A stretch of DNA of 64,000 bases. It comes from Heterotrichella gracilis. Lineage: Eukaryota; Sar; Xanthophyceae; Tribonematales; Xanthonemataceae. The stretch spans positions 62,001 through 126,000 of the forward strand of contig JAULBX010024405.1 in the NCBI GenBank assembly GCA_032358255.1, read 5' to 3'. The notes beneath the pieces were generated by a model. It saw nothing but the letters and a program-made list of their open reading frames with translations. It was not told the DNA's origin and did no database searches. A program made the position numbers and the translations under genes. Shown here in pieces: positions 172 to 63,875 of the stretch (position 1 is the first letter of the stretch; the number at the start of each line of letters is the position of its first letter).

Positions 172-580
172 CACAACTCCCTCCAGCCCGGCTGGCTGCA
201 CGTATAAATAGGCCCCGCTCACAAATGCCAATTTATCTATTCCTTGACCCCCTGAAGCACACGGCCCTCTACATTTTTGCTGGATGCACATGTTAACACC
301 CCTTCCTCCCAATGTCCCAGGCGCACAGATCCCACCAGCCAGGCTAGCGGCATGTATCAATAGGCCCCAAATCACAAATTTTGAACATTGCTCCCACACA
401 TGAAACCCCTTACCTCAGATGCACAGCATTTTTATTTCCGGGCTTGGTGCATGTATCCATAGGCCCCATCCACAATATGTGTCCCACAAGTGCCCTCCTT
501 TCCATAGGCGCACAACTTCCTCCAGCCCGGCTCGCTGCATGTGTCAATAGGCCCCGTGGAAATGGCCAACATCAACCGCT
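172..580 (+). repeat. Four-copy array of the ceramidase acceptor / exon start
   Basis: The block that ends in the functional acceptor (CAATAG before 551) and the first exon bases GGCCCC is repeated upstream at about 172-225, 312-372 and 428-470. Each copy has a C-rich run, a CCAGCCCGGCT-like stretch where preserved, and an ATAGGCCCC end. Spacing is about 80-140 bases. The first three copies diverge directly after GGCCCC. Confidence 0.8.
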
Positions 581-3500
581 CCCCCACCGCCTACATGGCC
601 AACCCCCCAGAGGAGCGGGCCCGCTACGACCACGATGTGGATAGGAACATGACCCTCATTAGGGTTTATGATGCGCAGGGCAGGTGAGGGCTAGGGGGTC
701 GGGAATAGGAGTTGAACATCTTAGGATTTATTTTGGGCGTTCCAGCCAAATGATCCACCTCGCACCACCACCGTTCTCCCACCCCTAGGCCTATTTGTGC
801 CTCCCGCTCGGCGGGGCAGGTCCCTCCCCCTGTCAAGGACTGGAATATGTTTGACCCCTTGACTTTCACAGTCCAGTGGTGCGCAGGGGCCTGGGTGCCT
901 TAGCTGGTCATACTGGAATCTGTCTCGACTCTTGCATTTCAACCCCCCGATCCCCTAAACCCTAAACCTTAAACCCTAAACCCCCATGTGGTGCGCAGGG
1001 GCCTGGGTGCCTTCAGCTGGTTTGCGGTGCACGGCACCTCCATGAGCAACACAAACCCATACATCAGCGGGGACAACAAGGTAAGGGTTGGGGGCCAGTG
1101 ATGTAAATTCTGTGGGTTTGCTCATCAGCAAGCTAGTATCTGTGCTGAGGCAATGCAAACCTCTTCTTCTGAAAACTCTTTGTGCGCTGCATCCCCTAGG
1201 GTTGACGGCTGAGAATTAGGGTACTGGTAAGGTGTTTGTTGTACCTCCATGAGCAACACAAACCCATACATCAGCGGGGACAACAAGGTAAGCTTTGCTT
1301 GTAAACAACTTAACGTACCACATCCCCTAATGTTAGGGTTTTAGGGTATCGCTGGGTGTTTGGTGCACGGCATCTTCCTGAGCAATACAAATCCCTACAG
1401 CAGCGGGGACAACAAGGTAAGGGTTGGGACCGTTCGAGGCAAATATAATGTGCTCCGAAATGATCGACATACATTCCACATGTTGTTTGGGTAGACTGTC
1501 CTGTGCTTGGGATGTGAATGGAACTGCTGGTCCCTGATAAGCTTCCTTAAAGCAACAAACCCTACAACCTGGGGGTTTTTCTCCTAAAATGATGTCAGAA
1601 CCTCCCCGTGTCCAACTGTGCCCCTGCCTCCCCTGCAGGGAGCCGCCGCGCAATTCATGGAGGAATGGGCAGAGGGCACAGGGCACCCTGGGTTTGTGGC
1701 CGCATTTGCGCAGGCAAATGTGGGGGACACCTCGCCCAATGTGCTGGGGGCATTTTGTAACGACACGGGCTTGCCATGCGATGCCGTGCACAGGTGAGGG
1801 TTTTGACGTGGGTAGGGTTTAGGGCTGTGTGCGCACACAGTTAGGGTTTTGGAATGGGTACTGCTGCCATGCGGCGCCGTGCACAGGTGAGGCTTCTGAT
1901 AATTCTAGGGCTTATATTTTTTGAACTTTGATCATTTGCAGTTAAGAGTTTTGAAACGACACAGGCGTGCCATGCGATGCTATCCTCAAGTGAGGGTTTG
2001 ACGTGGTTACGGTTTAAGATATAGGTTCTGGGCACCCGCAGTTTAGGGTATTGCAGCAACACAGGCCTGCCATGTGATGCCGTCTACAGGTGAGGGTTTG
2101 GACAAGGATAAGGTTTAGGTTTTTAGAGCATGCATTTAGGGTTTTGGAGTGGATAGTGCTGCCATGCGACGCCGTTCACATGTGAGAATTTGTGCAAGGT
2201 AAGGGTTACAACAAGGTTTAGGGTTTTGAGGGCATGCAGTCAGGGTTATGTAGAGGACACATGCCGCCATGCCACGCCATCCACAGGTGCAGGGTTTGAT
2301 GTGTTCAGGGAGTAGGGTTTAGGGTTTGAACATGCGCAATTAGGCTTTTGCAAAACTGCATCAAAGACTTTGGCCCACCCCCGCCCCACCCACCCCAATC
2401 CCACCCCCGCCCCATTTCCTTTCACGCAAACACAAGTCACTTCACAATGTGACAGTGGCTACAAGGCACACTGCTGCGCATTCCTCTCACCACAACGGTA
2501 ATATCAACCCCCCACCCACACCCGTGCAGCACCTGCAATGGGCGCAGCGAGCTGTGCCTAGGCAGGGGACCAGGCTGGCCCGATGAGTTTGAATCGACTC
2601 GGATCATCGCCGTGCGCCAATTGAACGCCGCCAAAGCGCTCTGGCACCAGGAGGGCAGCCGAGTGACCGGTCCGATCGATTCCCGCCACGCCTATCTGGA
2701 CATGCGGGCGGTGGTGGTGCATGAGAGCGGGTATACCAGGGAGGGGGTGACGTGCCCCGCGGCGATGGGGTACAGCTTTGCGGCGGGGACCACTGACGGT
2801 GCGTGGCGGCGGTGGTGGTGGTGGTGTAGTGGTGGTGGTGGTGGTGGTGGTGCTTCACTGTTGTATTTTAGTAGTGGCGGTGCGTGGTGATTGGTGCATG
2901 AGAGTGGGTATACCAGGCAGGGGGTGACGTGCCCTGCCGCCATGGGGTACAGCTTTGCGGCAGGGACCACTGACGGTGCGTGGGTGGTGGTGGTGGTGGT
3001 GATGGTGCATTAAAGAGGGGGTAAACCATGACTGCATCAGGGGGGTGGTGTAGAAGGGAGGGAGCGTGGGTGGGGAATGCAGAACGCTTCGGTGTTAAAC
3101 CCTACAGAAGGGTTCACGTTCAAGCAGGGTTTCAACAACGGCACCGCATTCTAGAACCTAGTCAAGGATTTGATCCAACAGTACAGTAGGGTCACGCCAG
3201 CTTGCAAAATTCCTAGCATGTTAGACGCGCAGAAAAGGTAACAAAGGAAATGACAAAGTAAGGAGCGTTTATTGATCCTACTCTTGTCCCTTTGCCCGCA
3301 GGCCCCGGCCAGTTTGACTTCAAGCAGGGCTCCACCAACGGCACCGCCTTCTGGAACCTAGTCAAGGGTTTCATCAAGGAGCCCACACCCCGCCAGGTGG
3401 CGTGCCACCAGCCCAAGCCAATCCTGCTGGACACAGGGGAGATGACGCTGCCCTATGAGTGGTGCGCCGTAGGGTTTAGTCTAGGGTTTTGTTAGGGTTT

Positions 3501-6076
3501 GCTCAAAGAGCCCAAGCCAATCCTGCTGGGTACAGGGGAGATGACGCTGCCCTACGAATGGTGCGCACTAGGGTAAAGGCTAGGGTTCTGGTCAGGGGCA
3601 CGCCTAGGGTTTGGGCTAGGATTTATGTCAGGCTTGTTGTGATGAGGCAGAATCCAAACAGTGCATGCCTGGTCGTGCTGGGCTAGATCACTGAACTGCA
3701 TTCCAGCAATACAGCCAGATGCTGGACTGGGTCGATTGCAAAAGTTGAAAATCCAAATCCAGAGCCAATGAGCTGTTCAAATGAAACCACCTTGCCGCTA
3801 CAGGACCCCCTCCGTGGTTCAGATCCAGATCCTGCGCATCGGCCAGCTGCTGCTGCTGGCTGTGCCTGGTGAGCTGACCACCATGGCAGGGAGGAGGCTC
3901 AGGGAGGCGGTGTATGCAGAGGTAAGAGGGAAGTGAACTCAAGGAAAAGCGTGTAAGGTGCTTTATAAACCCTGATGGAGGTTATTGAGGCCTTGAGGAA
4001 ATAACGGGCGGGGCTGGGGTGGGAGAAAGTGCCTGGTACCCTGACCACCATGGCGGGGAGGAGGGTCAGGGAGGCGGTGTACAAGGAGGTGAGAGGGGAG
4101 GACAACCTTAAGGAAAGTGTCCAGGTCTTGGTTTACCTTGTTGCTGGTCTGAGCAATGTGTACAGGAGCTATGTGACACCTGGGAGGGAACCCAGCACGA
4201 AAACAACCCTCGCAAACGACCGTGCACAGGCACTAAACCCTGTCAATCCATCCCCCAAAACCCTAGCAAACCCTCCTCGCGCAGGCACGCGGTGCGTGGC
4301 CTTGTGCCCATTGTTGCCGGTCTGAGCAATATTACAACAGCATGTATGTTGCCACACGGGGATGAGTATTGGCACCAACACCCTAGTGGAAGCCCCTGTG
4401 TATAGAACCCTACTGAATCCCTACCAATCCATACTCCTGAAAACCTAGCGAAGGAAAGATCTCTTCTTGCAGGTACAGGGCAACCATCGTGGAAGAGTGC
4501 CAGCACCAAAACCCTAGAAAACCCTACCACATCACACTCCAGAAGCCCTAGCAAGCCCTTTTTCCCGCAGGCGCGCGGCGCATGGGGCGACAACCTTGTG
4601 CCCATTGTTGCTGGTTTGAGCAACGTGTACAGCAGCTATGTGACTACATGGGAGGAGTATCAGCATCAGCGATATGAGGGGGCGTTCACGCTGTATGGGC
4701 CGCATACCCTGGGGGCATACATCCAGGTAAGGAAGACTGGGTAGGAGTGGAGGGGGCCATAGTTAATTAGCTACATGCATTCCAGCAATGCAGCCAGATT
4801 AGCAGTCGGTCTTGCACATGCGGCGCCACGCAGCTCTTTCCTGGCACTGTTTGAACCACTTATTGATCCCACGCGACTTGAGGTCCTGCTGGAGTAAGTC
4901 AGCCCACGTGGCCCTTGGCTTACCTACCCCCTTTGCCCCCTCCACCCTACCAAACGCCATACATTTAGGAACCCTATCGTAAACGATAAGGGGGCATGTC
5001 TATTCTTTACGTGTAAAAAAAATGCTGGGGCAGAGTGGTATGGCTGCCACAAAGCTGGATGGACGAGTCATTGATGAGACCTCCATTCAAATTGAAGTCC
5101 CTGCCAATACCCTGCCAGAATCCTATAAAAAACCCTACCAAAACCCTTGCAAATGCCCTGCTTCACCCGCAGGAGTTTGTGCGTCTCACCCATTCCATGG
5201 CGCGCAACCAGACCCTGCCCACCGGCGCACCCCCGCCCAGCCTGATTTCCCGCCAAATCTCATTGCTGACTCCCGTGGTGGTGGATTTGGTCCCCCCGGG
5301 GGCAGAATTCGGGGGCCTGGTGGCAGATGTGGCGCGGGGTCCTTTCCGGGCGGGGGCCAGGGTGGCTGCCACATTCCATGCAGGGTGCCCGCGCAATGAT
5401 CAAATGCTGGGGGGCACATTTTTGGCGGTGGAGCGATACGATGAGGAGGGGGAAGAGTGGGTGCAGGTGGGTGGCGTTTGTGTCGGTGGCAAGGGCGGAA
5501 ACAACCAGCAACTATCCATGTGCTGCTGCCTCTAACTACAACAATACGCACACCCAATAATTACCCAACCAATTCCTTCCTTACCTGCGTAATACCAACA
5601 CCCCTTCACATTTGCAGCGATATGGTGAATTCATTGGGGCACCCTCTTGTATTGGTCCAGCCCCTGGCCACTGTCTGCCACCTCAATTGCCTCGGCCACA
5701 TGGGCAATAAAAACAAATGTCCATTTTGCAGGAATACGGCGATTCCCATTGGAGCACCCTCTTCCATTGGTCCCGCCCCTGGTCAGTGTCTGCCACCTCA
5801 ACTGCCACAGTCACTTGGACAATCCCCAAGAAAACCACCCCAGGGGTGTACCGCCTGGCGCACTTCGGCCACTACAAAACCCTACTGCAGCGGGTGGTAC
5901 CCTACAAGGGTTTTTCCAGCACCTTTGTGGTGGTGGATGGGGATGTGGGTGGTGGTGGTGGGGAGGAGGGGCAGAATGGGTGGGAGTGGGGGGTCTCGCA
6001 TCTGCGGGATTTGTGGATCCAGCTGGTGGGGGGGGTGAGCCGCGTGTTTGGTCGTATGATTTGGCCCTTTGTGTAG
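551..6076 (+). CDS. NCER: Neutral ceramidase (N-acylsphingosine amidohydrolase), 5' end outside window
   Basis: Hydrolyses ceramide to sphingosine and fatty acid; family members act in the secretory pathway or at membranes. Nine exons are visible: 551-683, 999-1080, 1639-1793, 2530-2798, 3302-3461, 3804-3921, 4571-4726, 5173-5466, 5732-6076, all phase-compatible (about 569 residues; the family is usually 650-780, so the N-terminus lies upstream). Family landmarks in order: NINRSP; SWFAVH, whose His matches a zinc ligand; NVGDTSPN, which contains the family nucleophile Ser; KPILLDTGEM; EFTTM-like GELTTMAGRRLREAV; WEEYQHQRYEG and LYGPHT, which supply the remaining metal ligands; then the C-terminal Ig-like domain ending around PGVYRLAHFGHYK. 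A Gly/Glu-rich insertion follows and the last approximately 25 residues are not family-like. Introns are full of exon-edge copies, annotated separately. The identification is secure; the exact C-terminus is less so. Confidence 0.93.
875..915 (+). repeat. Copy of acceptor plus exon start (ceramidase exon at 999)
   Basis: GTGGTGCGCAG plus GGGCCTGGGTGCCTT recurs about 117 bases upstream of the functional site at 990-1013. A one-base loss follows, and the copy then decays into non-coding sequence. Confidence 0.8.
1241..1417 (+). repeat. Two copies of exon 3'-end plus donor (ceramidase exon ending 1080)
   Basis: The copy at about 1242-1292 is identical to the exon end through the GTAAG donor, so it is very recent or has been converted. 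The copy at about 1358-1417 has several replacements but keeps SGDNK-type coding and the GTAAGG donor. TAGGGTT words separate the units. Confidence 0.88.
1765..2292 (+). repeat. Ladder of exon-end/donor copies after ceramidase exon 1639-1793
   Basis: The exon end CCATGCGATGCCGTGCACAG|GTGAGG is followed by at least five decayed copies near 1857-1888, 1951-1992, 2050-2092, 2156-2186 and 2251-2290, about one per 100 bases. Each is followed by GGGTTT/TTTAGGG-type sequence. Most retain a GTGAG or GTGCA donor-like word. Confidence 0.85.
2804..2862 (+). repeat. GGT triplet tract just inside a donor
   Basis: An imperfect (GGT)n run starts a few bases after the donor at 2799. It is one example of the G-rich donor-proximal composition seen across the window. 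Confidence 0.8.
2892..2980 (+). repeat. Well-preserved copy of ceramidase exon end 2717-2798
   Basis: About 90 bases with six substitutions relative to the functional exon end and its GTGCGTGG donor. Five of the six are synonymous in the exon frame; the other changes Glu to Gln. The reading frame encoding the CPAAMGYSFAAGTTDG region is intact in the copy. Confidence 0.88.
3109..3180 (+). repeat. Decayed copy of ceramidase exon start 3302-3380
   Basis: The stretch matching FKQGSTNGTAFWNLVK is recognisable upstream of the real exon but contains an in-frame TAG in place of the Trp codon. It is therefore a dead copy. Confidence 0.85.
3497..3572 (+). repeat. Copy of exon end plus donor (ceramidase exon ending 3461)
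   Basis: The region coding for PKPILLDTGEMTLPYEW is repeated just after the real donor, with a GTGCGC donor at its end. TAGGGTT words lie on both sides. Confidence 0.88.
4037..4370 (+). repeat. Mixed exon copies between ceramidase exons 3921 and 4571
   Basis: A copy of the GELTTMAGRRLREAVY exon end with a GTGAGAGG donor lies at about 4037-4095. Two partial copies of the next exon's start follow, around the bases for VAGLSNVYSSYVTTW, at about 4126-4180 and 4283-4370. Donor-side copies thus precede acceptor-side copies within one intron. Confidence 0.82.
5617..5710 (+). repeat. Copy of acceptor plus start of last ceramidase exon
   Basis: TTTGCAG followed by a diverged version of the exon starting at 5732 (GGCGATTCCCATTGG-type sequence through the CTGTCTGCCACCTCAA stretch). 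It retains a plausible acceptor about 115 bases upstream of the real one. Confidence 0.85.
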
Positions 6077-6189
6077 GTTTCATGTGCATTTTAAAATGCT
6101 GCTGGTGCACTTTTGCACACAGTGTATACTATCGTTCGCTGGACTATAGGCCTGTGGGATTGACCATTGTGTTGTTGTTTGTTGTTGTC

Positions 6190-6315: not shown

Positions 6316-6368
6316 GTATTTGCTGTGCTTTACACGGGGGTGGGGGGAGGGAGGAGGTGTCGATAAAT

Positions 6369-8353: not shown

Positions 8354-11300
8354 TCATCGCAGCTTGATTACAATCCCCAGTGGGCAGTGGTCGCTCCCCT
8401 GCACCTCTGGCAGGTGGTAGCAGTCGTGCACCTGACCATACAGGGACTCAGACACCTGCAAACCAAATTGAAAATCGGATGGTAATTGGATGGTACCATT
8501 TGGGAAAAGATATTTGAAATCGACAACCATGTGGCACAGATTGGGTGAATACAGGGAATGCTCATCGGAGCGCGGCAATGAATGATTGGCAGTGACAAGG
8601 TTTTAGTACAGCCTCCACCCCTTGTTGCTTGCTCGCGCCCAGAATTAACCCTGCCACGGCACTCGATAGTGCACACAGAACCCTGAGCAGATAATTCTGC
8701 GGAGCAAACCCTACGCTACACACTACACCCCACCTCCACCCACGTAGCCGCACTTCTCATACAACCTACGCCAAACCCTAGGCCAGACCCTAGCTCAAAC
8801 CCTACGCACCAGGAAGTAGTCCAGCCGCCACCCATGCAGTTGCACATCTCTCACAACCTAGGCCAAACCCTAACCCAAACCTTAAGCCAGACCCTAGGTC
8901 AAACCCCACGCACCAGGAAGTAGTCAAGCCGCCACCCCTTGTTGCTTGCCCTTGCCCTGGTGCGGTAGTTCCAGTATGTGTATCCTACCACCCCTGGGTA
9001 CTGCTGTCGGAAAGCGTCCACCAGCCCGCCCCCCACTAAGTGCTGGCTGAAGGAGTCGCGCTCCTCCTGCAAATGGGGGAAATACTTGCTATTATACATC
9101 ATGCATGTATTTCAAAAACATGTTGTGTTTAAAAATAATCCCCCACAACCAGGTGCTGGCCAAAGGAGTCGCACGGCAGTGACAGGTAATGCCCATTACC
9201 TGTAAAATAAGATATGTGCTGTGCCCTGGTCCTATGCGCAGGGACCCTTGCAACCCTTGACCCAGTTCCAGCGGTAATGTGGGCTGCAGGGGCTGCAGGG
9301 CGACTGTGCATGAGAGTACTGCGGGAATGAGTGTGCTGAATCCAGGTAACGGCAACTCATCATAAAGTCAGGTTCCTCCCCACCTGCGTGAACCCCGCTG
9401 ACCGTTTGTTCCCCTTGGGATCGTGGATGTCGATTTCCTGGTGCGCGCAGTTCATGTCGCCAGTCACCACCACAGGCTTGCTGCGCTCCAGGCCCTGGAA
9501 GAAAGAACCCTAAATTAGGGTTCAGCAATTGAACAGCCATCATCTTTATCATGCAAATACACATGTTCCCTGGTTGAGGTATTTGAATTCTGGTTCTCTT
9601 GTTTTGCCTACATCAGGGTTTGGACAGCCAAAATCCAACCAAACAACCATGCCTTAGCCTGTCAAGCGTTGGTTTTCTTACACCTAGGTGCTGGTTCCAT
9701 CACAGAAGACGCGCATTTGCATGCATACTGTGCTTGCCCATTCCTTCTCATGTGCAAGTTCTTCGATGTCCCTGCCACGCACACACGGCTTGCCCCTCTC
9801 CAGACCCTACACATGTGCCCTATATCAGGCTCCGCACCTTGATGTAGGCAGCGAACGCTGTGTCCCACTCCTGTGTGCGGTAGTCCAGCCGCTTGAGCCC
9901 ATCGCCAGAGTTTGGCACATACACGCTCACCAGGAAAAAGGAAGGGAACTCCGCTGTTACCACCCTCCCCTCCCCGTCGTGCACATCCGCGTTAATCCCC
10001 TGGGTGACGGATAGCGGTTTGGACCTGCGAGCGGGGGTTGGGAGGGGTTAAGAGGCTGCTAGGAGATTGACAAGGATGGTATGTGGGGTCAGAGCATCCT
10101 GGAACGCTGTTTCCAACCCTGTAAGATGCCATCCTGCCTTAAACGCGCCACACGCCTTATGCCCAAACCCTAGCATTACGGCCGAATGCCTACCACAGGC
10201 CATCTGCCTTTCTCTCCTGTGCAGCTGGCCTGGAATGTGTCAATCCAGCCCAAGCAGAGGGTTTAGGGTTGTGCTAGGGTTCCGGTTTAGGGTTTTGCCC
10301 TACTTTGACAGTATGGCAGTCCCCCACTAGCCCAGCATGGGACCAAAGCCGCTCCTGTGTAGGGTCCAGGATGGGGGAAATCCTATTGAAGTATTTTTAC
10401 TTTTAAAAAATGTCTATTTTTTTTTATAAAGAGTAAATAGTTTAAGTAAAACTTATTTTGTTATGAAATATAAAAAAATGAGGGTTTACAGCTGGTGCTA
10501 GGGTTCCAGGGTGGCGCAAACAATGCAAGGGTGAATGATGATCTGGCTATACTTCTGATACACATACTATCACCCTTACTAGGGTTTAGGGTTTAAAGAC
10601 CCACTTTGACAGTATGGCAGTCCCCGAGTAGCCCAGCTTGGCGGTGGAGCAGCTCCAGTGCACGGTCCAGGGGGAGGGAAACCCTAGTAGGGTTTCCACC
10701 TCCTCCACGTGCTTGCACTGCAGCTTGGTCTCCTGGAGGCACACCACCTCCGCACCCTCCCGCTCCACTAAGGAAATCAGTGCGCTGGGGTCCTGTGGGG
10801 GGTGAGGAGTGGTGTGTGGGGATTGGCATGTGGCGGGGAAGGGCAATGGGGACTGGCATGCAGTGAGGTCATGCAAGGTGTCTGGGGATTGGCTTTAAAA
10901 AGGGGTAATGTGGGATGCAATTGGCATATTCTGAACTGCAACACGCACAGCGTTGTAAGGTCTTATGTCAAACCCTACAGAGGTCTCCCAAACCCTGTAC
11001 CTTCTTGAGCAGCGCCCTGAGCCCCGCCACGTTCCAGCACAGCACCCTGCATGCCTCCCCGGTGTAGGGCGGCGGCCGCATGCTGGGCTCATACACCGGG
11101 CCTAGCAACAGCAGTACAAACATGCGTTACACACTGGTGAGATAAAACCTTAGGAAGGGATTTGTGTAGGGCGGTCGCATGCTGGGTTCATACACCGGGA
11201 GTGGCATCAGCCAATGCACACCATTGGCTCAAGTGCGAGCATACAATTCAGCGCAATTTTGCCACCAGCAATGCAACTCGAAAGCGGGTAATGATGGACA

Positions 11301-20807: not shown

Positions 20808-23800
20808 CTAAGGGTTTGACATCTCCAGCAGCATCAACCACCCATTGAAGGCAAATAACAGGCTGCCGATGAGGTATCCGATGAAGTTGAACACCCAGTG
20901 TATGTCCAGGACATCTCCTCAAAGTGCCCCACCTTGGCCAAAAAGGCAGCGCTGCCCAGTGTGAAGCACACACCGCCCCAGAACCCAGTGCATGGCGCCC
21001 AGAAGCCAACCCTGCACACAAGGGATTTGGAAGGTCGTTGAGAGAGCTTGAGCAGGTCATTTGGTTGGAATGAGTAAGTGCTCTTGGGAGCATGCTCCTG
21101 GGTTTCAGCTAGGGAGCTTACCCTAGCTGAAACTGCTGCACAAAGATTTCAATAGGGCTGTAGCAGACCCCTGTGTAGGGTTTTAAGTCCCAAATTAAGG
21201 TCTCGACTTTTTGCAGGTCCTTGATAAACACCCCGCATCCCCCACAGCCCAGAACCCACCACTTCACACACACCTTCACTACCTGCTGTCACCAAATACC
21301 CCCCCCACCCCCCCACACCACCTCACCACCATTTACCTGGTGAGGTCCTTCCGATTTGTGGGCACCAGCCCCCTCCACAGGCTGTGCGCCCCCTCCGAGG
21401 CCTGCACCCAGCCAAACATGGCAAAGCACATGCTGCCGTAGGTGGCGGGCACCCACACCACCCAGCGCTGGGCGGCTGTGGACAGGTTGAGGGGTACTGT
21501 GGGGTCCAAAGCAAAGGTGGTGAAGGCGGTGGAGAAGCACAGCTTGCCCGTCAGCATCACCCACGAGGCCCAGGACATGATATTGTGCGCCTGAAAAAAA
21601 AAGGTTTTTTTTTGTATTTAATTGATGTGTGGGTACTGCTTTTGGTACTGCTTTTTGTGTCTAGCGTGGTTGGCACCCCCCATGTTGAGGACCTAGGAAT
21701 AATTGGGTCAAAGGCAAAGGTGGTGCAGGCAAGACGCGAGAGGGAGCAGCACGGCTTGCCCGAGAGCATCACCCAGGAGGCCCAGGACATGGTGATGTGC
21801 GCCTGCAAGTGGTGGGTGGGTTGGTAATAATGCGTGCACCCCTTGGCCCTTCAGCCACACATCCATCCTGGCCCCTCGATCAGCGAGATCAATATCCCCA
21901 AATAACCTGCCACATTCATCCTGAAAAAGGTTCCACAAAATTGCCTGGTTTTGGGAATCCGTCTGTGGCGCACCTTGAATGGTAGGAACCACCTGTAGCG
22001 CGGCTTGCGCCCCTTGGACCCCTCATCCCGCCACGCGTCCACCCTTGTGTCGTAGTCTGTGTTGCCAACCTCAATCAAGGTGAGGATGACACCCGGGAGG
22101 AAGAACATGTCTGTACCAATCACCGAGGAGTATCCCACCAGAAAGGCCCAAGGGCTGGCCGCGCCATCGTACTCAGAATCGGACACCTGCGCACGTAATC
22201 GAAACAAATATCAATTTTCAAGAAACCCTTTTCTGAGTAGCAATGATGACAATGGCCATGCAAGCCCGGTAGAATGGTGGGCTTGACCCAAACCTAACCC
22301 TAAACCCTAATCCTAAGCCAATCACCGTTGATTATCCCACCAGGAAAGCCCAGGCGCTGGCTGCGCCATCGTACTCAGAATCGGACACCTGCGCATGCGG
22401 TAATATCAAATACATATCGAACAAGGTTCACTGGATATCAGATGGTGGTAATGCACGGTAGGGGAATGGGTCTAGTCCAACCTGTAACCCTAAATACGCT
22501 AAATGCACACTACAAGTGATCCATCCAAGCCACCTAAGGCAATATTGTCCGACCAAACATACATAAACCTGAATGAATGCCCTTACACCCGACGGCTTCC
22601 TGGCTGCTTAATGCCCCTACATGCAGGTCAGTCCCATGTGCACAACTTGTGACTTACCTCTTACAAAAGTGCAGTAATGGAAGGTGATATTGTCACAACA
22701 TCCGGGTTGATGATGGCTCCAATGGTGAAGATGATTCCTCCCAATGGGAAGCACAAAAGTACAGTAACTCAAGGTTGAATTACCAAAACGTACCGGCTTG
22801 ATAATGGCTCCAATTCCCCCGATTGTGAAGAAGATGCCTCCCATGAGGAAGCACAGTCCTGACCACCACAGCACCGCCTGCTGGGGAGACTTGTGGTACC
22901 TGGCCAAGAAAATTGAATCATAAGCGCTTTTCAATGCATATATGGATACATTGGCTTTTGAAATCAAAAGCATTTGACGGTATATCCCTGCACAGAAAGG
23001 TGTATGGTACCTGGCCATGTGAAAGAGACCCATGCTTATTGGGACTACAACATCATTTCATACCTTATCGTTTGCAAGAAATACTGGAATAAACAGGAGA
23101 ATGGACCACTTTGCACACGCCTCCTCTTAGCGCAACCGCCGCGGTTGAACCAGTTCAAAGCTTGCAGGGATGGATACAAACACACTTTTTAGTTGGGTTA
23201 GTAACAGCCTCGGGGTTGTACCTTGACACGTGCACCCAGTCCCACCACTTGAAGCGCTTGCCTGGTGGCTTGCCCACCTCCTCCCCTGTCGATGTGGTCC
23301 AGCGCACCGTCCTCCCCTTGCGATGTCGACGGGCGCCCCATTCGAAATGGAGGCCATCCGGTGAGGTTCCTGCGGATGACACCCATAAAAACGTTATTTC
23401 CTCCGCTAATTAATTTAATTTGATGCACCTGTGATGACTTTGAACGTCACAACAGGGGTGGCCACTTGTACATTTACATTTCAAATCCCACAGACGTGAT
23501 CTGCAAAACCCTCCATGGCGCCCTGTACAACCCTGCCTGGGTCATGTCAAAACCCTAACTTGGTGCACCTTGATACCTGCACGGTGCGGTTTAAGACCCT
23601 ACACGGTGGGCTCTGAAACCCTAAATGGTGCCTCACCTGATGCCCCTGTTATGAAGAAGGGTTTGCCGTGGATGTTAAGGAAACCCTTGTACTCCACTCC
23701 TTCCCTGCAAGCCATGGTGGTTAGGTGAGCATACATCGAATAGGGCTGCATGTAAGTATCTATGAGATAGAGTGTCCACAAGCAAGCTAGTACCCGGCTA

Positions 23801-50392: not shown

Positions 50393-50431
<39 letters not shown>

Positions 50432-51904
50432 CAACTATCAAGAAAGTCTACAACTTCAATTGCATTAGCTGCGTAGTTTGTTGATTTATGCATAATGCTG
50501 TCCCATTGCCAACCCACCCACTCAGCCACTTCCCGCCAGCAACCCACCTCCTGCCCCCACCCCGCAGGCTGCCCGTGCACCTGCACGAGTCCATGTCCAA
50601 GGTGCGCAAGGCTGAGAAGGAGCTGGCAGACAAGCTGGGAAGGGAGCCATCGCAGAAGGAGGTGGCGGGCAAGGTAAGGGCAGGGCTGTGCTCTTGCTTT
50701 GCAAGTTTTGGAGGGTCAGGGTCACTGCTGGATTGTATGGACCTGATTGTATTGGCATCGTCAAGGATTTATCTACCTTGTGATTTGGCTGGCCAAGTGG
50801 GCTTCCCTGAAAATCAGCTGCTACCTTTCCTGTCCGTAAAGGCAGCAGCTGACTTTAAATAAATTAAGCTGTTTGTTGACAGGCTGCAACGATGTGCAGT
50901 GGCTGCAATGCTGAGCTGCATGTTGCTAAACCAGCCAACTGCAGATATGTGTACCTAACCGTTGATTTTGGGCTGGCCAGGTTGGCTTCTCTGAGAACAA
51001 GCTGCACGCGCTGCGCAAGTCGTACCGCAACCCCACCTCCATGGACGCGCCGCTGCGCTCCTCAAACGGGGAGAACCGCACGCTGGAGGACATGGTGGAG
51101 GACGACATGCAGGTGAGAGGGGGGAAAAGTGTCGAGGGTTGAGGGTGTATGGTGACTGAAGTGAACATATTGAATAGTAAGAAACAAAAGCCTGGTGTGT
51201 GTGAATTGCGGGGTGGGATAAGAGGAGTGGGTAGAAGGGGGAGGGGGAGGTAATGGACGAGGTGGTTGTTGCAAAAGCTGTTAGGGCAGCTGCGCCTAAC
51301 GTCGCGGGTGGGCAGATATACATGCAAGTGAGGGATGGTGTTGAGAGCGCATGGCGTGATTCCTGCTGCACACACTCTGATTGTTGCGCTGACCATGCAC
51401 TTCCCCACTTGCGCAGTCCACCCCCGATGAGACCGCCACTCTGCGGTTGCTGACCGAGGACCTTGAGAATGTGCTGCTGACCCTGAACGAGCGGGAGAGC
51501 GCCATCTTGCGGCTGCGATACGGGCTGGTGGACGGAGAGGAGAAGACACTGGAGGAGATTGGCAAGCACTTTAAGGTGCGCAGCAAACCCTGGACCCCAA
51601 ACTACATAGCCATGTCGTGCTATATTGCACTGGGAGCTTGGAAATGTGGTGAGTACGCATGCAAGTTAAAACCCCGACCTGGCCCTACAACACGGCGTGG
51701 TCCAGGCCCTAGTCTTAAAACCCTAAACCCTAAATCCCCCCCCTCCCTCCCCTCCAGGTCACGCGCGAGCGCATCCGCCAGATTGAGCAGAAGGCCATCC
51801 GCAAGCTGCGCCAGCCCTGCCGCAACTCGGTGCTGCGCGAGTACACCTATGGCATGGACGCAAAGCGCCTCAACAGGCGCGGCTCGCGCACCATGCGCGG
51901 GTAG
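47681..51904 (+). CDS. SIG: Plastid sigma-70-type RNA polymerase sigma factor
   Basis: Nuclear-encoded sigma subunit directing the bacterial-type plastid RNA polymerase to promoters. Eight exons: 47681-48262, 48349-48807, 49600-49785, 49982-50229, 50568-50673, 50981-51112, 51417-51575, 51758-51904; 2019 nt, 672 residues. A long Ser/Ala-rich N-terminal part (~350 residues) with a transit-peptide-like start is followed by region 1.2 ([14 protein letters not shown]), regions 2.1-2.4 ([45 protein letters not shown]), region 3 ([28 protein letters not shown]) and regions 4.1-4.2 ([42 protein letters not shown]). All core DNA-binding and core-binding segments are intact. The protein resembles the single sigma factor of chlorophyte algae. 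Confidence 0.95.
50396..50430 (+). repeat. (CA)n microsatellite
   Basis: An uninterrupted run of about 17 CA units in a sigma-factor intron. Confidence 0.97.
50787..50820 (+). repeat. Copy of acceptor and sigma exon 50981 start
   Basis: GGCTGGCCAAGTGGGCTTCCCTGAAAATCAGCTG repeats GGCTGGCCAGGTTGGCTTCTCTGAGAACAAGCTG about 180 bases upstream, with its AG acceptor changed. Confidence 0.88.
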
Positions 51905-53505
51905 GGCCTCGGTGGTGCGGTGTCGGGGATTTGCCGCTGCGCGAGTGCACCTATGGTGTGGACGCAAGCGCCTCGACAGGCGCGGCTCGCGCACCATGCG
52001 CGGATAGGGGCCCGGTGGCGGTCCTGGGGGTGGAGGGGCTTTCCATGAGGGGGTGATGGGGTCAGTAATTGTGTTGAATACAAGTGGGGGCGGTGTGCCT
52101 GGGCTGGTTGGGCTCGGGTGGCTGTGGGTGTTTGGGTTTGGGTTTGGGTTTCCCACTGGAGCGAGCTCTCGGCCTGGGGTGAAAGGAGCGGCTGGGGGGG
52201 AGGTTGAGCTTGAGAGTTGCTCTATTGGGCTGCAAGTGTATTTGGCAATACCATTGTACCACACTTGCGTTTTCAGTGGACTCGCTATTTTTTCCGAAGG
52301 GGGTTATATTTGGTAAGCTCCCGCCCAACTTGACTTTTGGGCCAGCAGTTTTGGGAAAGGGGTTTTCCTTACAGTGGGAAAAGCAACTGCACTGTGCTGC
52401 GCGAATGGGTATTTGTCTGTAATACTAGCCTTACATTCTTCCACTGCACATGTCATTGGTTGGCTTTCAACTTGCTGCGGCAGCAGCAGTTTGGCCAGGG
52501 GCTCGTGACGTGCAGCGCTGTGGATGGGTATGGGTATGGGTGGGGGTGGGAAGCCTGGGGCCAGGCCTTCCTGCCGATAGGCACTCTTTTTCTTGCGCAC
52601 TGAATAGCAGAACCCAACTTTTTTAGATGTATACCTGACGGGCTTGCGGGCAGTGGCGTTTTTACTCCCCCCTGCTCCTGGTGGGTTTTCACAGTCCACC
52701 AGCAGGGTATTGCGGGGTCCCCTTCGAATGGTTTTGGGTAGCCAGCCAAATGCTTTGTTTGCAACTCTGGAGTAGGCGTTGTTTCCTGTCTATACGCTAG
52801 CCGCCGCCACGTTGTTTTCGTCCATGTGCGCGCGCTTTGAGCACTGTGTGTTGAGGATGCCAGGCCTTCGACCAGTTGTGAAATGCGCTGGTGCTGATTG
52901 GCTCACTGGCTCACTGAGCCGACAGTCAGTGTTGTGGAACTTGCACAACCTTGTGTGTGGACGGGCTGTAAGAACTTGTGGCACACTATAACTGACAGCT
53001 CAGCAGACAGGGCCTTGCAACTTTGTCCCACTGGGCCGCATTATTATTCTATTCTATTCTACCATTGATGAGTACGGTGCAAGTTCAGTCCCACCACGTT
53101 GGGACAGACAGCAGTGTCTTCCTGTTTCCAGCGTCAACAGGCGCTGACAATGCCCCCTCCAAGACTCGAGAGACAGTGAGTTGCTGAGTATCATAAAGGT
53201 TCATCCATCCATCGGGGATCAAGGCCGTCCCTGGGCCTTGCATGCGGCATTAGATAAATTCGAAGTGCCCTCTGGGAGGCAGGATGCTCCCAAGAGCCAC
53301 TCAGGTTCCATGGAGGAAGAGTGCACCACTCAACAGCGCAGCCAGTATTCGCCCGATAAGCAGCAAGTCATAGCAACACGAAACCGTAAAACAGGCCCGT
53401 TGCAGTGTCCTAGCAAGCAAACAGCAGCTGACAGCAGCTGCATCTAGGGTTGAACGTCAGGCTGCGACCACATTGTGATCAGTGGAAACAGGAGTTGGGT
53501 TCAAG
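51905..53505. other. Intergenic region after the sigma factor gene
   Basis: Contains the terminal-exon duplicate (51936-52006), a TGTAA at 52418-52422 that may end the sigma transcript, a GGGTTTGG run (about 52130-52150) and the short tandem ATTCT run at about 53045-53062. The last part should include the next promoter. No gene is supported. Confidence 0.5.
51936..52006 (+). repeat. Post-stop duplicate of the sigma factor C-terminal coding end
   Basis: GCTGCGCGAG through GCACCATGCGCGGATAG repeats the last ~72 coding bases and stop, starting 31 bases after the real stop. A one-base deletion in the AAAG run breaks its frame. Confidence 0.9.
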
Positions 53506-56500: not shown

Positions 56501-59500
56501 CATGCTTATCAGGGTGTGTGATCAGGCCGGCAGGTACCAATGCCGGCGTGGTGGCAGGGGGATATGTGGGTTCTAGGGTTACTAGGTGCACCATTGCATT
56601 ACGCACCTTGTGGGACTTGCAAGGTGCAGTTCCTATCGATTGTGGACATGGAGGGTAGAACAAGTCTTACCTGCGGGTTAGCAAGTCCCTGCCTCCCCTC
56701 CCCTGGGGTACCTTCAACTGAAATTCCTTCCCTTGCTTCCCCCCCTTGCAGGCTGTGGGTGAGACCTGGGAGCAGTACCCCGAGCTGAAGCTCATCGCTG
56801 TGAAGCGCATGTACAGATACATGGTGCGTGGGGGGACCCTGAAACAACCCTGCGGAAACCCCGAATCGGAATATCAAATAGCCCTGCAACACCTCTGGCA
56901 TGCACAGTATATGGACAGGGTGACAGCTGTTTTACTCTACTGTTCAACATCCACTGAAACAGGGTGCGTTCATCTAGCCCTCTTACTGCCAATAATTGTG
57001 ATGATGATGAAAGCAATATTAATGTGCAGCAAGGGACGCAAAGGAACTTGAGCTGATCTGCAACCTCACCCAAACCAACCCAGAACACTAACACCCTAGC
57101 ATTCACTCAGCCCCCTCCCCTCTCCCCTTCAGCTGAAGGAAATCGAGTTGATCCGCACCTCGTGCAGATCATCAAGTGCTGGCTCAGCGGGGGCGCTGAG
57201 CAAAACAATGATTGAAATAAGCAATAAACAAACCCCTCTCACCTGCTCCACACACTCGCACCCCAGCTGAACGAGCTGAACCGAGAGCTTTGCACCATTC
57301 ACTGACCACCTTTTCCCCCCTTTCCCCCATCTACAGCTGAAGGAGAACGAGCTGATCCGCACCAAGGCGCGCGGCTTTGGCTCCGGCAACCTGGGAAAGA
57401 AGTTCTCCCGGGGATCCAAGGTCAGCCAGGACAGCTGGCAGGACGCCCTCAACAACCTGGTCAACGCGCCCTCGCCCAAGCTCATGCCCCTGGTCAAGGT
57501 GGGTGCTGGGTGCATGGCGTGACACTGTTGGGTTGTGGTAGGCGGGGGTTGGTGGTGGTGGTGGTGGGGAAGGTGTTTTTTTTGGGTCAGGATGTAATTA
57601 GGACAGCTGGCAGGACGCCCTGAACAACCTGGTTAACGCGCCCTCCCTCAAGCTCATGCCCCTGGTCAAGGTGGGTGGTGGGTGGTGGGTGCATGGCAGG
57701 AGTGTGGTAGGTTTATGTAGGTGGATGGTAGCGATGGTGGGTGGTGGTGGCGGAAAGGAGTGGGATGGTGGTGGCATTGGCGACAGTGCCGGTGGCGATG
57801 GCGGCAGTAGGGGTGGGAACGTTAATATTTGGGAGTGACAAGGAGGGCGCGAGGAGGGCAGGAGTTACTTTCAGCGTTCTACATGTAAATGATGATGATG
57901 AAGGAAATGATTGAAATAGGGAAACAAAAATCAACCAAAATTATATCACTTGTTTTGCAGGGCCTGCTTGCTGAGCTGTTCACCTACGAGGAGTTTGGTA
58001 CCAAGATTGGTGAGGAGCCAACTGCCAACGGGGTGGCACCACCTACTGAGGCGGCGCCAGAGGTCAAGGTGGGTGCTTGTTTTTCTTCATTCCTTACTGA
58101 CATGCGTTCCCGGGGGTCAGCCAGCTTACAGTGTTTCCAACGTGCCTTGCGTCAAGCAGCCCTCACATGCCACAGCTTGGCACTACGAGTAATCCTAATT
58201 TCCATTCAGTGCCGGCATGGTTGCCACGTCAAATTCCCGGCATGGCAATGTGTGTGAATGGAGCTGGCACCTAATGTAATTCCATAGTGGATGGCGCTGC
58301 AGAGTAACGAAACCATGCTCATGATGCGATGCAGTGCATCTGACTCATAATTATTGCCAACAGCGGGGTAGTCTGTACAATCAGAGTAGTACTGGTTGCA
58401 ACCATGCTGGTTATTGACAATGTTGACGTGCCACATGATGTGATTAGCCCCACCAGGGGCGCTTTCAGGACACCACCACCACCACCACCTCCCTCTGCAG
58501 GCACCGGAGGCAAACCTCCTGGGCGCAGAGCCCGCCCCCGCACCCGCCGCCGCACCCACCCCCGCCGCCGCCCCAGCGGCCGCAGTCGCGGCTGTGGCAG
58601 CCACCAGCGGAATCAGCGACCTCCTCTCCATGACAGGTGGTGACGCGCTCCCCCCTGCACCTCCCACCCCCGCCCTGGCGCCGGTGGGCCAGGCCCCCCC
58701 ACCCCCCGCCTATGAGCAGCAAGCCTACCAGCAGCCTGTGTACCAGCAGGTGCCCCAGCAATACATGCAGCAGGTGCGATTACTTTGTGGATACCATGCA
58801 GCAGGTTGCGGTATGGAAGAGTGCCATGACTGAAGTGCAATTATTTAGGAGAAGCAGTGCCAGGAGTCGGCGGGGTGCGATGAGTATGCGAGTAATAACT
58901 CTGTGATTGTGGTGTGAATTCCTTATCATTTTGGTATGATTGCTCTCTGTAATTAGCCGTGCCAACAGCGAGTGTGCCAGCCAGTGCTGCAGCAATACAC
59001 GCAGCAAGGGAAATTGCTTCCACTTGACCTCGTCTAGACGAGGCCCAAAAGGAACTGGTATAGAGAAAGCTTACGACGAGTTGCATTATGCAACTTGCAT
59101 ACACCATGCCAGTGCCAGGCTTTGATCAAGGGCATCAGTACAGTATTCCCTCCGCCATGCCAGTCATGTAATCAATCATGGCAGTCTTGCAATGAGGAAC
59201 CCCAACTTGGCCCTTATTCCCATTGAACCCAACCCTAACCCCCTCCTTCTCTCCTCCAGGCCCCCCCAGCACCCCAGGCCTATGCCCCACCCCCCCAGCA
59301 GCCTGTGTACCAGGCACCACCCCCACAGTACCAGGCGCCACCACAGCAGGCGGCCTACCAGCCAGCACCCGCGCAACAGGCACCCCAGGTAATGGTTTAG
59401 GGTTTTGTTAGGGTTTAGGGTCAGCTTTGTTCTAGGGTGTAGGGTCTTAGCCTCCACAGCATGTGCCCTACCAACCAGCACCCGCGCAACCGGCACCCTT

Positions 59501-61296
59501 GGTAAGGGTTTAGGGTTGTGCCACCATAGTAGCCGGCCTACCAGGGAGGGGTGCCTGCAAGCGTGGTGGCAAAACCCCAGGCAAGGGTTTGAGCTGCTTG
59601 GCCACTGCAGGGTTTGACACCATTTGCATGCAAACCACAGCCTAAAGGGCAGGTTTTTATGGTTTCGACTACTTTGGTATATGAAAGCATTGCCCCTGTG
59701 TACAGCAAAAAAAACTCAACAGGCTGCACTTTTCTCCCTCTTTACTCACCTTTGTAATCCCCCTTGTAGGCATATGGCCCCGGCTCCATCCCCATCCCTA
59801 CCTTGCCCCGGTGTACATTGAATACTTTAAACAGGTTGGGCTTCTACTACTCTCTTTATGTACTTACCCATCCCATTCCCCTTTCTTAGGCATATGGCCC
59901 CGGCTCCAACCCCATCCCCGACCTGGCCCCGGTGTACAGCGAAAACCCTTACGGGGTGCAGCCCATCCAGGTGCCCCAGCAGCCGGCACTGGCACAAGGT
60001 GCGCTTAGGGTGTAGGGGGTAGTGTCTAGAGTTTTGGGGTGTACACCGAAAACCCTTACGGGGTTCAGCCCGTCCAGGTGCCCCAGCAGCCGGCACTGGC
60101 ACAAGGTGAGACCAGGGTGTAGGGCTTGATGTCTAGGGTTTTCAGGTGTACACCGAAAATCCTGATGGGGTTCACTCCATCCAGGTACCGCAGAAGAAAC
60201 ACCTTGATATGCATGTACGCCAGTGTGGTTTGCCCATCTGCACTGTGCTCTTTATTGCATGCTCCGTCATGCCCAAAAGCACACATGTTATTTTGCGTCA
60301 GCCTTTGTCATTTGTTTGCATCGCAAGTCATCCGCCTGCTGCTAGCATAATGGTCATGCACCATGATCTGGGTGTGAGATACACTTGGCAAGTCTTGTTT
60401 CAGCATGCCTCTGAGCACAGCACTCACTTGCCACAACCCCCACACCCGCAACCCCCACCCACTGACACCCTCCCCATCCCCCCCCTGCGTCCCGCACCCA
60501 CTGACACCTCCTATCCCCTCCCCCTCCCGCAGCCTACTCCAGCCCCCACGCCTACCTGCCCACCCCGCAGCCCATGTACTCACCCACCGCAGCAGCAGCA
60601 CCCGCACCCGCACTCGCCTCAGCAGGCTCAGCAGGTAGGGTACATCCTATGCCAATAATTGGTATATAATATTATATTCTTGGCCGACAGTGCCTTTTTG
60701 GTCACGTACAGTTTAGACGGGGTGACTCATGTACTCAGACCTGATGAGAGGAGGGGGATACGAAGTACCTGGTGCGCCTGTTACAAGTCATGTGCATGCT
60801 GGGACACGACGTGTATGTATACGCAATACAGCTTCCGCACGTCACCGGATGAAGGCCCGGCCACGTGCAACACGCATCCCCATATCTTCGGCCTAGGGCC
60901 TGTAGTCTGCGGGGATGGCACTGGCAAAGCCGCCATTCACAAATCCCTTACTTTCCCTTACACTTTCTTACCAATGTGGCAATGCCGCCGTTCTCTGCAG
61001 GCAGGGAAATTCCCTCCCTTTTCCGAAAACTGCCGAATATTCCGTCACTTTTTCTTACATTTCCTAAAACTCCCCTTCCCTCCCCTGCAGGCAAGAACCC
61101 CTTTGCCGACAACTCCCTCGCTGACCTGGCACCCATCCAGCAGCCACAGGCCGCTCCCCAGGCACCCATGCGCGCAGCTGCACCACCCGCACCCTACCCC
61201 GCCGCACCCGCCCCGGCACCCGCCCCGGCACCCGCCCCGGCGCCCCTGGCCGCCCCTGTGGGAGGTGACATCTTCTCAGGCCTCTCTGGCCTGTAG
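53506..61296 (+). CDS. NPF/DLL-motif protein, probably a membrane-coat or endocytic adaptor
   Basis: Thirteen exons: 53506-53538, 53833-53941, 55228-55324, 55695-55737, 56163-56270, 56752-56823, 57337-57498, 57961-58068, 58501-58773, 59260-59388, 59890-59998, 60533-60634, 61091-61296; 1551 nt, 516 residues. Residues 1-~240 form a charged helical domain (VEEFSRRFFEKVVNKGYGD, EDVRIPLRVLRDEIGRHYF, LYDAVEDNCQTELG, YPELKLIAVKRMYRYM) that I cannot place in a family. The rest is Pro/Ala/Gln-rich with short sorting-type motifs: DLLSMTG (clathrin-box-like), KNPFADN (EH-domain ligand), DIFSGL. A folded domain plus such a tail is the layout of ANTH/ENTH-type adaptors, which is why I infer a coat role. 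The intron density and copy number are the highest in the window. Confidence 0.78.
55798..56105 (+). repeat. Serial acceptor-side copies of exon 56163
   Basis: Copies begin CAGCTGTTTGCTGC (55798), GCAGCTGTACGATGCTGTTGGGGAC (55931) and GCAGCTGTACGATGCCGTGGAGGAC (56060). The real GCAGCTGTACGATGCTGTGGAGGAC is at 56159. Bare TTTGCAGCTGTGACC also occurs at about 55895. Several retain a pyrimidine tract and AG. Confidence 0.88.
57040..57300 (+). repeat. Serial acceptor-side copies of exon 57337
   Basis: AAAGGAACTTGAGCTGATCTGC (57040), CAGCTGAAGGAAATCGAGTTGATCCGCACC (57131) and CAGCTGAACGAGCTGAACCG (57264) precede the real CAGCTGAAGGAGAACGAGCTGATCCGCACC. Confidence 0.88.
57600..57690 (+). repeat. 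Copy of exon 57337-57498 end and donor
   Basis: About 70 bases (AGGACAGCTGGCAGGACGCC through CTGGTCAAGGTGGGTG) recur about 170 bases after the original with only a handful of changes. The GTGGGTG donor is preserved, as are the following GGTGGT-rich and GTGCATGGC stretches. Confidence 0.92.
58955..59015 (+). repeat. Copy of exon 58501-58773 end
   Basis: GTGTGCCAGCCAGTGCTGCAGCAATACACGCAGCAAGG mirrors the exon end coding for VYQQVPQQYMQQ. The donor is altered to AAGGGA. Confidence 0.8.
59028..59043. other. 16-bp perfect palindrome
   Basis: CCTCGTCTAGACGAGG in the intron after exon 58773, directly after an exon-end copy. Confidence 0.9.
59456..59570 (+). repeat. Two copies of exon 59260-59388 end
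   Basis: CCTACCAACCAGCACCCGCGCAACCGGCACCC plus a GGTAAGGGTTTAGGG donor (about 59466-59515), and a shorter GGCCTACCAG remnant (about 59535). The donor-side TTTAGGG context is copied with the exon. Confidence 0.85.
59766..59822 (+). repeat. Copy of acceptor and exon 59890 start
   Basis: TAGGCATATGGCCCCGGCTCC...CCCCATCCC...GTGTACA repeats the functional acceptor and the first ~50 exon bases, 124 bases upstream. Confidence 0.9.
60039..60190 (+). repeat. Two donor-side copies of exon 59890-59998 end
   Basis: GTGTACACCGAAAACCCTTACGGGGT...GGCACTGGCACAAGGTGAG (60039-60108) is nearly complete with donor. GTGTACACCGAAAATCCTGATGGGGTTC...ATCCAGGTACCGCAG (60145-60190) is shorter. GTGTAGGG and TGTCTAGGGTTTT spacers repeat with them. 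Confidence 0.92.
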
Positions 61297-63070: not shown

Positions 63071-63875
63071 CTAGTGGCTTTCCTCCTCCTCCCCATGCTC
63101 CTTCTCATGTGCCAGCTCATGCTCCCAGTGCTCAGCATGGCCATACTGCAGGACGGAACAGAACCAAGGTTCAGCATTAATAGCAAAGGAACGGGCAAGG
63201 GATGGAACCAAAGCTTAGCCTTGAAGCACAGCACAGCAGAAGACAAGGGATGACTTGGCTCCCAAATCGACACCACCCAAACGCACAGGAAAAAAACCAC
63301 AACCCAGCCAAGAACCACAGCAGCAGCACGCAAGCGAGGAGGAAAAATAGACTAGTAGCTGTATCACTGGTACTTCACCAACAGAGAAGAGTGTGTGCTT
63401 GCTGCACCCAAAGTGACACCACCCAAAACTCACCAACAGTGTTCTGCCATCATGGTACGCCCGGTAAAAGATCCAGAACCTGCAACACAGGTTGTGTCAG
63501 TAACTCCGTGCAGATGACTGTTAAGGATTGCAATACCGGCTTTGTCGATGACTCTGTGCAGCTCGTTTGTTTGATATGCCACCTATTCAACATGGCGTAG
63601 ATGGGTGTAGTGGATGGCACGCTGTGTAGTTCACCATTAATGTGGACATATGGGCAACCGTGCATTCTGTGTAGGTTGAGAAGTCACCTGAGAGGTCAGG
63701 GGTTTGGTTTACTAGGAGGTGTGGACAATATCCTACTAGCATATAGTGAATTCATGGTGTAGGTGGGGCACTCACCACATGGTCGCAGCCAGTCCCTCTC
63801 CCACGTACACGTGCCATTTGGCGGGTTTGTGCAGCGTCACCCCAGCGTACGTGACAGAGTCGCCGTGGTGCCCAC
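63071..63875 (-). CDS. NDUFB2: Mitochondrial complex I subunit NDUFB2 (AGGG), 5' end outside window
   Basis: Small single-span accessory subunit of the NADH:ubiquinone oxidoreductase membrane arm. Three exons in minus order: 63776-63875, 63434-63479, 63071-63145, all phase-compatible. They encode GHHGDSVTYAGVTLHKPAKW, HVYVGEGLAATMWFWIFYRA, YHDGRTLL and a tail YGHAEHWEHELAHEKEHGEE ending in Ser-His. The HKPxxWH...GxGLxAxMWFWxxYRAxxDG pattern is the plant NDUFB2 signature, and the His/Glu-rich tail matches the charged C-terminus of plant versions, though longer. The start codon and any presequence lie to the right of 63875, probably beyond the window. Confidence 0.85.

Follow-up and report, generated by a model that had tools for sequence, protein, structure and literature searches.

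Duplicated exon edges in the introns of Heterotrichella gracilis and telomeric sequence at their joints

Introduction

To our knowledge, the lengthening of introns without transposons is a largely open problem. The window studied here, a 64,000-nucleotide stretch of the Heterotrichella gracilis draft genome (assembly GCA_032358255.1, contig JAULBX010024405.1, positions 62,001 to 126,000), raises this problem in a direct form: its introns hold partial copies of the exon edges beside them, and the question is which process put them there. An initial annotation had described these copies as local tandem duplications across exon-intron boundaries, of all ages, which looked like the product of a continuing genome-wide process and not of a mobile element. 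Here we analyzed the distribution of the copies, their anatomy and the sequence at their joints, in the window and elsewhere in the genome. We give about an even chance to the reading that the copies are scars of staggered breaks across splice junctions, closed by fill-in and rejoining, in many cases once the exon-bearing end had been extended with telomeric sequence.

Materials and methods

The main data set was formed by the window together with 19 further stretches (253 kb in all) of the 68.5-Mb, 903-contig draft genome. For the genome-wide view 20 stretches of about 10 kb were drawn and one of them (L006) was dropped; it has 37% GC, is packed with bacterial-type reading frames and is the one bacterial stretch found in the draft assembly. 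Five further stretches (50 kb), fetched once the tests had been devised, were used as a hold-out.

Gene models were made by a small gene HMM trained on the sequence itself, which recovered strong signals at donors (CAG/GTRNG, the slash marking the boundary) and acceptors (TGCAG/G). Exons shorter than 45 b were left out of the analysis because many of them are edge copies. In the edge test the 50-b ends and starts of exons were compared with their own introns, a score of at least 36 being taken as a match.

The model of the neutral ceramidase gene was aligned with the solved human enzyme (4wgk), and the junction 1080/1639 was free of gaps (SGDNK/GAAAQF). Two predicted tiny exons, 2057-2089 and 2964-2975, lie inside exon-edge copies and add 11 and 4 residues to the protein relative to 4wgk; their absence from this homologue supports their intronic status. 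Nothing in 4wgk corresponds to the predicted exon 789-878 either, which may be a false exon. Eight proteins were compared with Pfam, by which the genes of a ceramidase, two Exo_endo_phos proteins (AP endonuclease-like), AhpC/TSA, Aha1 and sigma-70 were backed, while two proteins had no family and one had a sub-cut-off match only. By Pfam, one gene model fuses an AP endonuclease domain with an unrelated AhpC/TSA domain; the sigma-factor gene model looks like a fusion too. The introns of the paralogous AP endonuclease pair were too diverged for the timing of events.

Sites in the window

The sites are given below with coordinates, strand and, where one applies, percent identity.

876..908, plus: upstream copy of an exon start with acceptor (parent 988-1021; 97% over 34 b, spacing 112)
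953..983, plus: telomeric CCCTAAA array of 4.4 units between copy 876-908 and the parent exon (TRF)
1026..1092, plus: parent exon end with donor, neutral ceramidase gene, exon end 1080 (gene model, 4wgk alignment)
1243..1292, plus: intronic copy of ceramidase exon end 1036-1085, donor GT intact (identical, 50/50 b)
1362..1428, plus: second intronic copy of the ceramidase exon end (90% over 67 b)
1753..2352, plus: array of about 6 copies, unit of about 100 b made of exon end, donor and intron start (BLAST spacings 93, 100, 196, 296, 388)
2715..3001, plus: exon end 2715-2826 and copy 2892-3001 (92%)
3119..3375, plus: copy 3119-3175 of exon start 3319-3375 (88%)
3410..3590, plus: exon end 3410-3491 and copy 3509-3590, with TAGGGTTT between (88%)
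3862..4100, plus: exon end 3862-3933 and copy 4029-4100 (85%)
5611..5823, plus: copy 5611-5708 of exon start 5725-5823 (81%)
22116..22395, minus: two exon-edge copies, 22116-22193 and 22318-22395, with a CCCTAAA tract between (90%)
51832..52018, plus: exon end 51832-51915 and copy 51936-52018, sigma-factor gene model (90%)
57428..57684, plus: exon end 57428-57512 and copy 57600-57684 (94%)
59337..59520, plus: exon end 59337-59407 and copy 59450-59520, with TTTAGGG-like tracts between (sequence comparison)
59758..59946, plus: copy 59758-59825 of exon start 59877-59946 (86%)
59931..60196, plus: two and a half tandem 107-b units across a donor (TRF, sequence)

The copy number of the array 1753-2352 was taken by eye, and this array is absent from the TRF list. 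The G strand of the array 953-983 is directed away from the parent exon. In the tandem units at 59931-60196 the first unit ends with TAGAGTTTT and the second with TAGGGTTTT.

Distribution and direction of the copies

The cleanest result of the analysis is the edge test. Over the 253 kb and the hold-out together, exon ends were found again in their own downstream intron in 47/327 introns and exon starts in their own upstream intron in 33/327, as against 2/654 for the reverse complement, 0/638 in unrelated introns and 0/414 on the wrong side. The 253 kb alone gave 40/266 introns for exon ends and 29/266 for exon starts; the controls there were 0/168 on the wrong side and 0/259 in unrelated introns for each kind of edge, 1 and 0 of 266 for the reverse complement, and 1/154 for exon middles. 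The hold-out gave 7/61 and 4/61, with no match on the wrong side (0 and 0 of 39) or in other introns (0 and 0 of 60), and 0 and 1 of 61 for the reverse complement. Exon-edge duplication in introns is thus genome-wide and far above chance, and the corresponding statements of the initial annotation are borne out: introns do hold exon-edge copies, donor-side copies lie downstream and acceptor-side copies upstream, and the same holds in the 19 further stretches and the hold-out. Its count of ten affected genes among thirteen is not exactly reproducible because two gene models look like fusions; by hand comparison, 7 of 10 gene models hold families of copies.

With a second criterion added, a copy was present in 59/266 introns, each of which bears a datable growth scar with parent and copy adjacent. 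As the two stand side by side, the rate of growth, the break position, the source of the filler and the effect on splicing become directly measurable. Copy-bearing introns are also longer (median 460 against 323 b).

The window has 61 local direct pairs at E<0.01, which fall into 39 families: 34 link exon and intron, 1 is intron-only, 1 consists of coding repeats and 3 are intergenic. In 115 of the 194 local direct pairs of the 253 kb a copy extends across a predicted boundary, and the 135 families comprise 110 exon-intron, 11 intron-only, 8 intergenic and 6 coding ones, with a shortest spacing of 60-240 b in 127 of them. In the hold-out, 14 families link exon and intron, 3 are intron-only, 2 lie in intergenic DNA and 1 is coding. 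In the window, pairs less than 1 kb apart at E<0.001 were direct in 49 cases and inverted in 1; in the 20 random stretches such close pairs were direct in 105 cases and inverted in 3. The duplication is therefore direct and local, and it is independent of any particular sequence (introns of other genes, 0/518), which is what staggered breaks would leave.

The same figures bear on a mobile element or introner that would carry or make the copies. Direct repeats with some 90 b of filler between them do look like an insertion with target-site duplication, but none of the exon edges is matched in unrelated introns (the same 0/518), repeats more than 1 kb apart are scarce within the stretches (9, against 108 within 1 kb), and the sole shared filler motif noticed is telomeric. 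By these counts of exon edges and local repeats no dispersed element was seen, in agreement with the initial annotation, and we regard such an element as very improbable. Hardly any credence is due to an assembly artefact: the assembly is a draft of 903 contigs with one bacterial stretch, yet parent and copy differ by 0-26%, and the copies have indels of their own and obey splice-site geometry. The range of ages given earlier, from identical to barely visible, is supported as well.

Preference for exon-intron boundaries

A plainer account is that short tandem duplications, by slippage or patch-type repair, arise everywhere, that selection clears them from exons while conserved exons keep boundary cases recognizable for longer, and that telomere-like motifs are merely common intron words marking fragile sites. 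It has points in its favor, for full-length tandem units are present (59931-60196 and 1753-2352), exon parts diverge on one side only, and intron-interior windows too hold local copies. This account was simulated by placing duplications uniformly, keeping those which left splicing undisturbed, and decaying and detecting them with a similar score. The ratio of boundary to intron-only families was 1.25-1.76 for whole units and 0.81-1.11 for short segments, i.e. 0.8-1.8, against an observed ratio of 10 in the 253 kb; the hold-out ratio was lower (14:3).

A direct count of windows with local copies gave 40/263 (15.2%) and 28/261 (10.7%) at the two kinds of exon edge, 57/1180 (4.8%) in intron interiors and 19/1485 (1.3%) in intergenic DNA. 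These direct counts shrink the preference, to perhaps 3-fold when slower decay of exon-derived pairs is allowed for. The boundary preference thus lies somewhere between about 3- and 12-fold by our own arithmetic, and a part of it may be slower decay. Taken with the telomeric evidence given below, tandem duplication of this plain kind is possible but distinctly less probable than the staggered-break reading.

Anatomy of the copies and the filler

In 67 measured copies the exon part has a median of 52 b and is nearly equal in both spacing classes, being 53 b (upper quartile 75) in the 36 copies at a spacing of 135-250 b and 51 b (upper quartile 60) in the 30 copies at 60-135 b. The classes differ in the unmatched sequence between the copies, with a median of 92 b in the long-spacing class against 5 b in the short one. 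The match stops within 15 b of the splice site in 21/67 copies; the pairs 8329-8444/8540-8655 of stretch L017 and 2565-2675/2761-2869 of L019, for instance, have about 90% identity over the exon part and little past the splice site. The filler is flanked on either side by edge copies, which is a change of the flanks of the kind known at break insertions, such as target duplication. Spacings peak at about 100 and 195 b in the 253 kb, a suggestion of bimodality, while the hold-out is not clearly bimodal (13/20 families at 60-121 b).

Duplication of whole tandem units was rejected as a description of all cases, as 38/45 high-identity pairs had no clear flank similarity (z <3 on both sides); in the other 7/45 the sequence between the copies does resemble the flank expected to continue the unit. 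Of the earlier description as tandem duplications across the boundary, the local duplication stands, but many cases are not contiguous tandem repeats: often just the exon edge matches, with unmatched filler between the copies, and the telomeric part of the pattern was absent from the initial annotation.

Direct repeats around a filler are also a feature of models in which an intron is born inside an exon, by segmental duplication or by an insertion with target-site duplication. In such models the edge of the copy should meet the opposite end of the intron, but it came within 12 b in 0/40 and 1/27 copies only, and intron birth is improbable as the source of these copies. The same measure (0/40, 1/27) speaks against intron gain by AGGT segmental duplication, in which the copy edge should equal the other intron end.

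Telomeric sequence at the joints

At least 7 contigs begin directly with a TTTAGGG array, and TTTAGGG is therefore the telomere repeat of this organism; a telomerase RNA-binding domain is encoded in the genome. In noncoding DNA all seven rotations of TTTAGGG rank at the top of 140 permutations of the same composition (158-373 counts, median 30). These words, the commonest intron 7-mers and clustered near splice sites, would favor plain tandem duplication. The joints were compared with matched offsets in copy-free introns by 2000 draws.

In the 253 kb the organism's own telomere repeat, here internal, was found in outward orientation within 30 b of the joint in 24/64 cases against about 7 expected, the other 40/64 joints being without it. 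At donor joints sense TTTAGGG 6-mers stood within 30 b before the copy in 17/39 against 4.0 expected, a number reached in 0/2000 draws. The signal is weaker at acceptors, where the antisense motif was found at 7/25 joints against 3.1 expected (57/2000 draws). The opposite, inward orientation was at background (donors 4 against 3.9, acceptors 1 against 1.4), so that the telomeric G strand at the joints is directed away from the parent exon. When whole 6-mers were required, outward TTTAGGG was found at 21/64 joints against 5.7 expected and came first of 40 class-strand combinations (20 rotation classes), followed by its near-variants AGGTTTG and ATTTGGG, both outward; the inward strand gave 4 against 4.2 expected. 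A transcribed-strand effect through R-loops or G-quadruplexes is disfavored, the telomeric G strand being sense at donors and antisense at acceptors.

The sequence right before edge-only copies is often telomeric, as in AGGGTTTAGGATTTT followed by GGTC and GGGGTTAGGGTTAGGG followed by TTTTGG. In 44 unmatched fillers the outward motif made up 9.7% and the inward motif 1.6% of the bases, with an intron background of 3.2 and 2.1%. Donor cases with filler had the motif at the joint in 11/24, whereas the second unit's end had it in 1/24; in acceptor cases with filler the counts (2/13 at each place) are uninformative. Donor cases with homology over the full length number 14; the motif was at the joint in 6 of them and recurred at the second unit's end in 4, and there it may predate the duplication; the 11 acceptor cases of this kind had 5 and 3. 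Plain tandem duplication leaves unexplained the excess over matched offsets, the strand asymmetry and the 1/24 in donor filler cases.

The telomeric test was conceived after the data had been seen and its independent part is the 10 hold-out joints only, of which 4 had the outward motif against 0.4 expected (donors 2/6, 0.23 expected, 38/2000 draws; acceptors 2/4, 0.19 expected, 21/2000 draws). The inward motif was found there too, at 1/6 donor and 1/4 acceptor joints, and the asymmetry in the hold-out is thus just 4 to 2.

Proposed mechanism

In the staggered-break reading, a break would leave about 40-120 b across a splice junction single-stranded on both ends, and fill-in and rejoining of both ends would leave two copies of this stretch. 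Before this, the 3′ end on the exon-bearing side would in many events gain TTTAGGG repeats and other filler, giving the order edge, TTTAGGG-rich filler, edge copy. The spliceosome would keep using the outer, exon-proximal copy, while the inner copy and the filler would become intron and decay neutrally; repeated events would lengthen introns and could build arrays. Staggered breaks, the action of telomerase (or of CST-Pol alpha) and splice junctions as preferred break sites are what we infer from the observed geometry, and insertion, rather than filler which was there beforehand, is suggested by the asymmetry within this one genome.

The outward orientation is what extension at the exon-bearing 3′ end would leave. 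The choice of this end could come from G-rich sequence that leads out of both exon edges and primes the extension; it could also be that opposite events are lost, because an exon copy preceded by CCCTAAC, which resembles a branch point, would become an exon. With clearly less than even confidence, we suggest a lineage trait in which splice junctions are favored sites of a telomerase- or CST-linked break repair. The outgoing G-rich strand would prime telomeric extension, fill-in would duplicate the edge, and introns would be lengthened steadily at either end by exon debris and telomeric DNA. The orientation rule would tie intron growth to a named and testable repair machinery.

Comparison with known systems

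For rice, insertions have been described as tandem duplications that arise when double-strand breaks undergo patch-mediated repair (Vaughn and Bennetzen 2014, as described in PMC7407515, section 4.3). Like the copies here, these duplications are short and wholly or partly tandem, some contain an insert, and they are ascribed to asymmetrical nicks and end joining; unlike here, the description there mentions neither telomeric filler nor a focus on exon-intron boundaries. CST-guided Pol alpha-primase makes small tandem duplications at 3′ overhangs (PMC8355091), and there too the overhang is duplicated via fill-in and end joining, CST being also part of the telomere machinery; that system differs in its engineered breaks in mouse and human cells, and telomeric repeats are unreported in the sections of PMC8355091 consulted. 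The copies seen here, with their direct orientation, sharp edges, local spacing and filler between them, fit staggered breaks as in these two systems, as far as the cited sections describe them.

In primates, rodents and horse, short interstitial telomeric sequences have entered the genome at double-strand breaks, with telomeric repeats at the joints as here, at times with random sequence or target duplication, and with telomerase implicated (excerpts of PMC7215372). In contrast to the present copies, 31% of the human sites lie in introns, which is the random expectation, and in horse a simple duplication was given for 3/66 loci (same excerpts), whereas the present cases were found by their exon-edge duplication. 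Plant telo boxes are likewise short telomeric motifs near genes, for which a model supposes that telomerase works on free 3′ ends in transcription-associated repair; unlike the motifs here they are concentrated in 5′ regions, and exon-edge duplications are undescribed in the consulted part of PMC3022908. The literature searched gave no account of duplicated exon edges with telomeric sequence at the joints; the search covered subscription journals thinly and is weak evidence of absence.

Fate of the copies and their splice sites

Exon and copy differ by 9.7, 9.0 and 16.0% at codon positions 1, 2 and 3. Gap lengths are not multiples of 3 in 62/69 cases, and a frameshifting gap is present in 34/67 copies. 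On sequence comparison this pattern fits neutral decay of the copy together with synonymous change in the parent exon.

The view that selection keeps the copies, for use as exons or as alternative or decoy splice sites, could draw on the higher third-position difference (16% against 9-10%) and on the splice sites, of which GT is intact in 33/40 and AG in 18/27 copies. The third-position excess, however, is accounted for by synonymous change in the parent exon, the gaps mostly break the frame, and the intact sites are near the neutral expectation, which at 87% identity is about 76% intact, or 30.5/40 and 20.7/27 by our own arithmetic; such selection is therefore improbable. With GT and AG kept in this way, the copies would hold many potential cryptic splice sites, retained at about the level of neutral drift.

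Telomere-repeat words and their surroundings

The 7-mers of the noncoding DNA were counted, and words of the telomere repeat (TTTAGGG, CCCTAAA on the opposite strand) were the most frequent, being concentrated within 50 bases of splice sites in introns throughout, as at these example sites.

953-983, telomere-repeat words, intron
33475-33621, telomere-repeat words, intron
59389-59470, telomere-repeat words, intron

CCCTAAC upstream of acceptors also resembles a branch point and pyrimidine tract. In the same draft genome a match to the telomerase RNA-binding domain, split in two pieces, was found on a single contig (C626; stretches L024 and L025).

Comparison of copies and paralogues

Read by eye, the identical copy 1243-1292 shares its left flank with the diverged copy next to it (1341-1428) but its exon sequence with the parent, a pattern that overwriting through gene conversion or a second event would leave. 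Two oppositely oriented gene models are paralogues.

8354-11123, minus strand, AP-endonuclease-like paralogue 1
25891-28148, plus strand, AP-endonuclease-like paralogue 2

Their identity is 78-79% in two aligned exon pairs, and among the intron pairs none gives an alignment at score 40; in intron 9495-9837, the counterpart of the intron carrying edge copy 27496-27551, no family of local direct repeats was found.

Other features

37147-37562, repeat array of 48/96-base units, within a predicted exon
L006 1-10000 (contig C100), stretch of low GC, genes of bacterial type

The array differs in kind from the exon-edge copies, and the predicted product of its exon is an HPHH-rich protein. The genes of L006 include tyrosine-recombinase-like and HipA-like ones (names assigned by eye); given its low GC and bacterial-type genes, the draft assembly therefore contains bacterial contigs.
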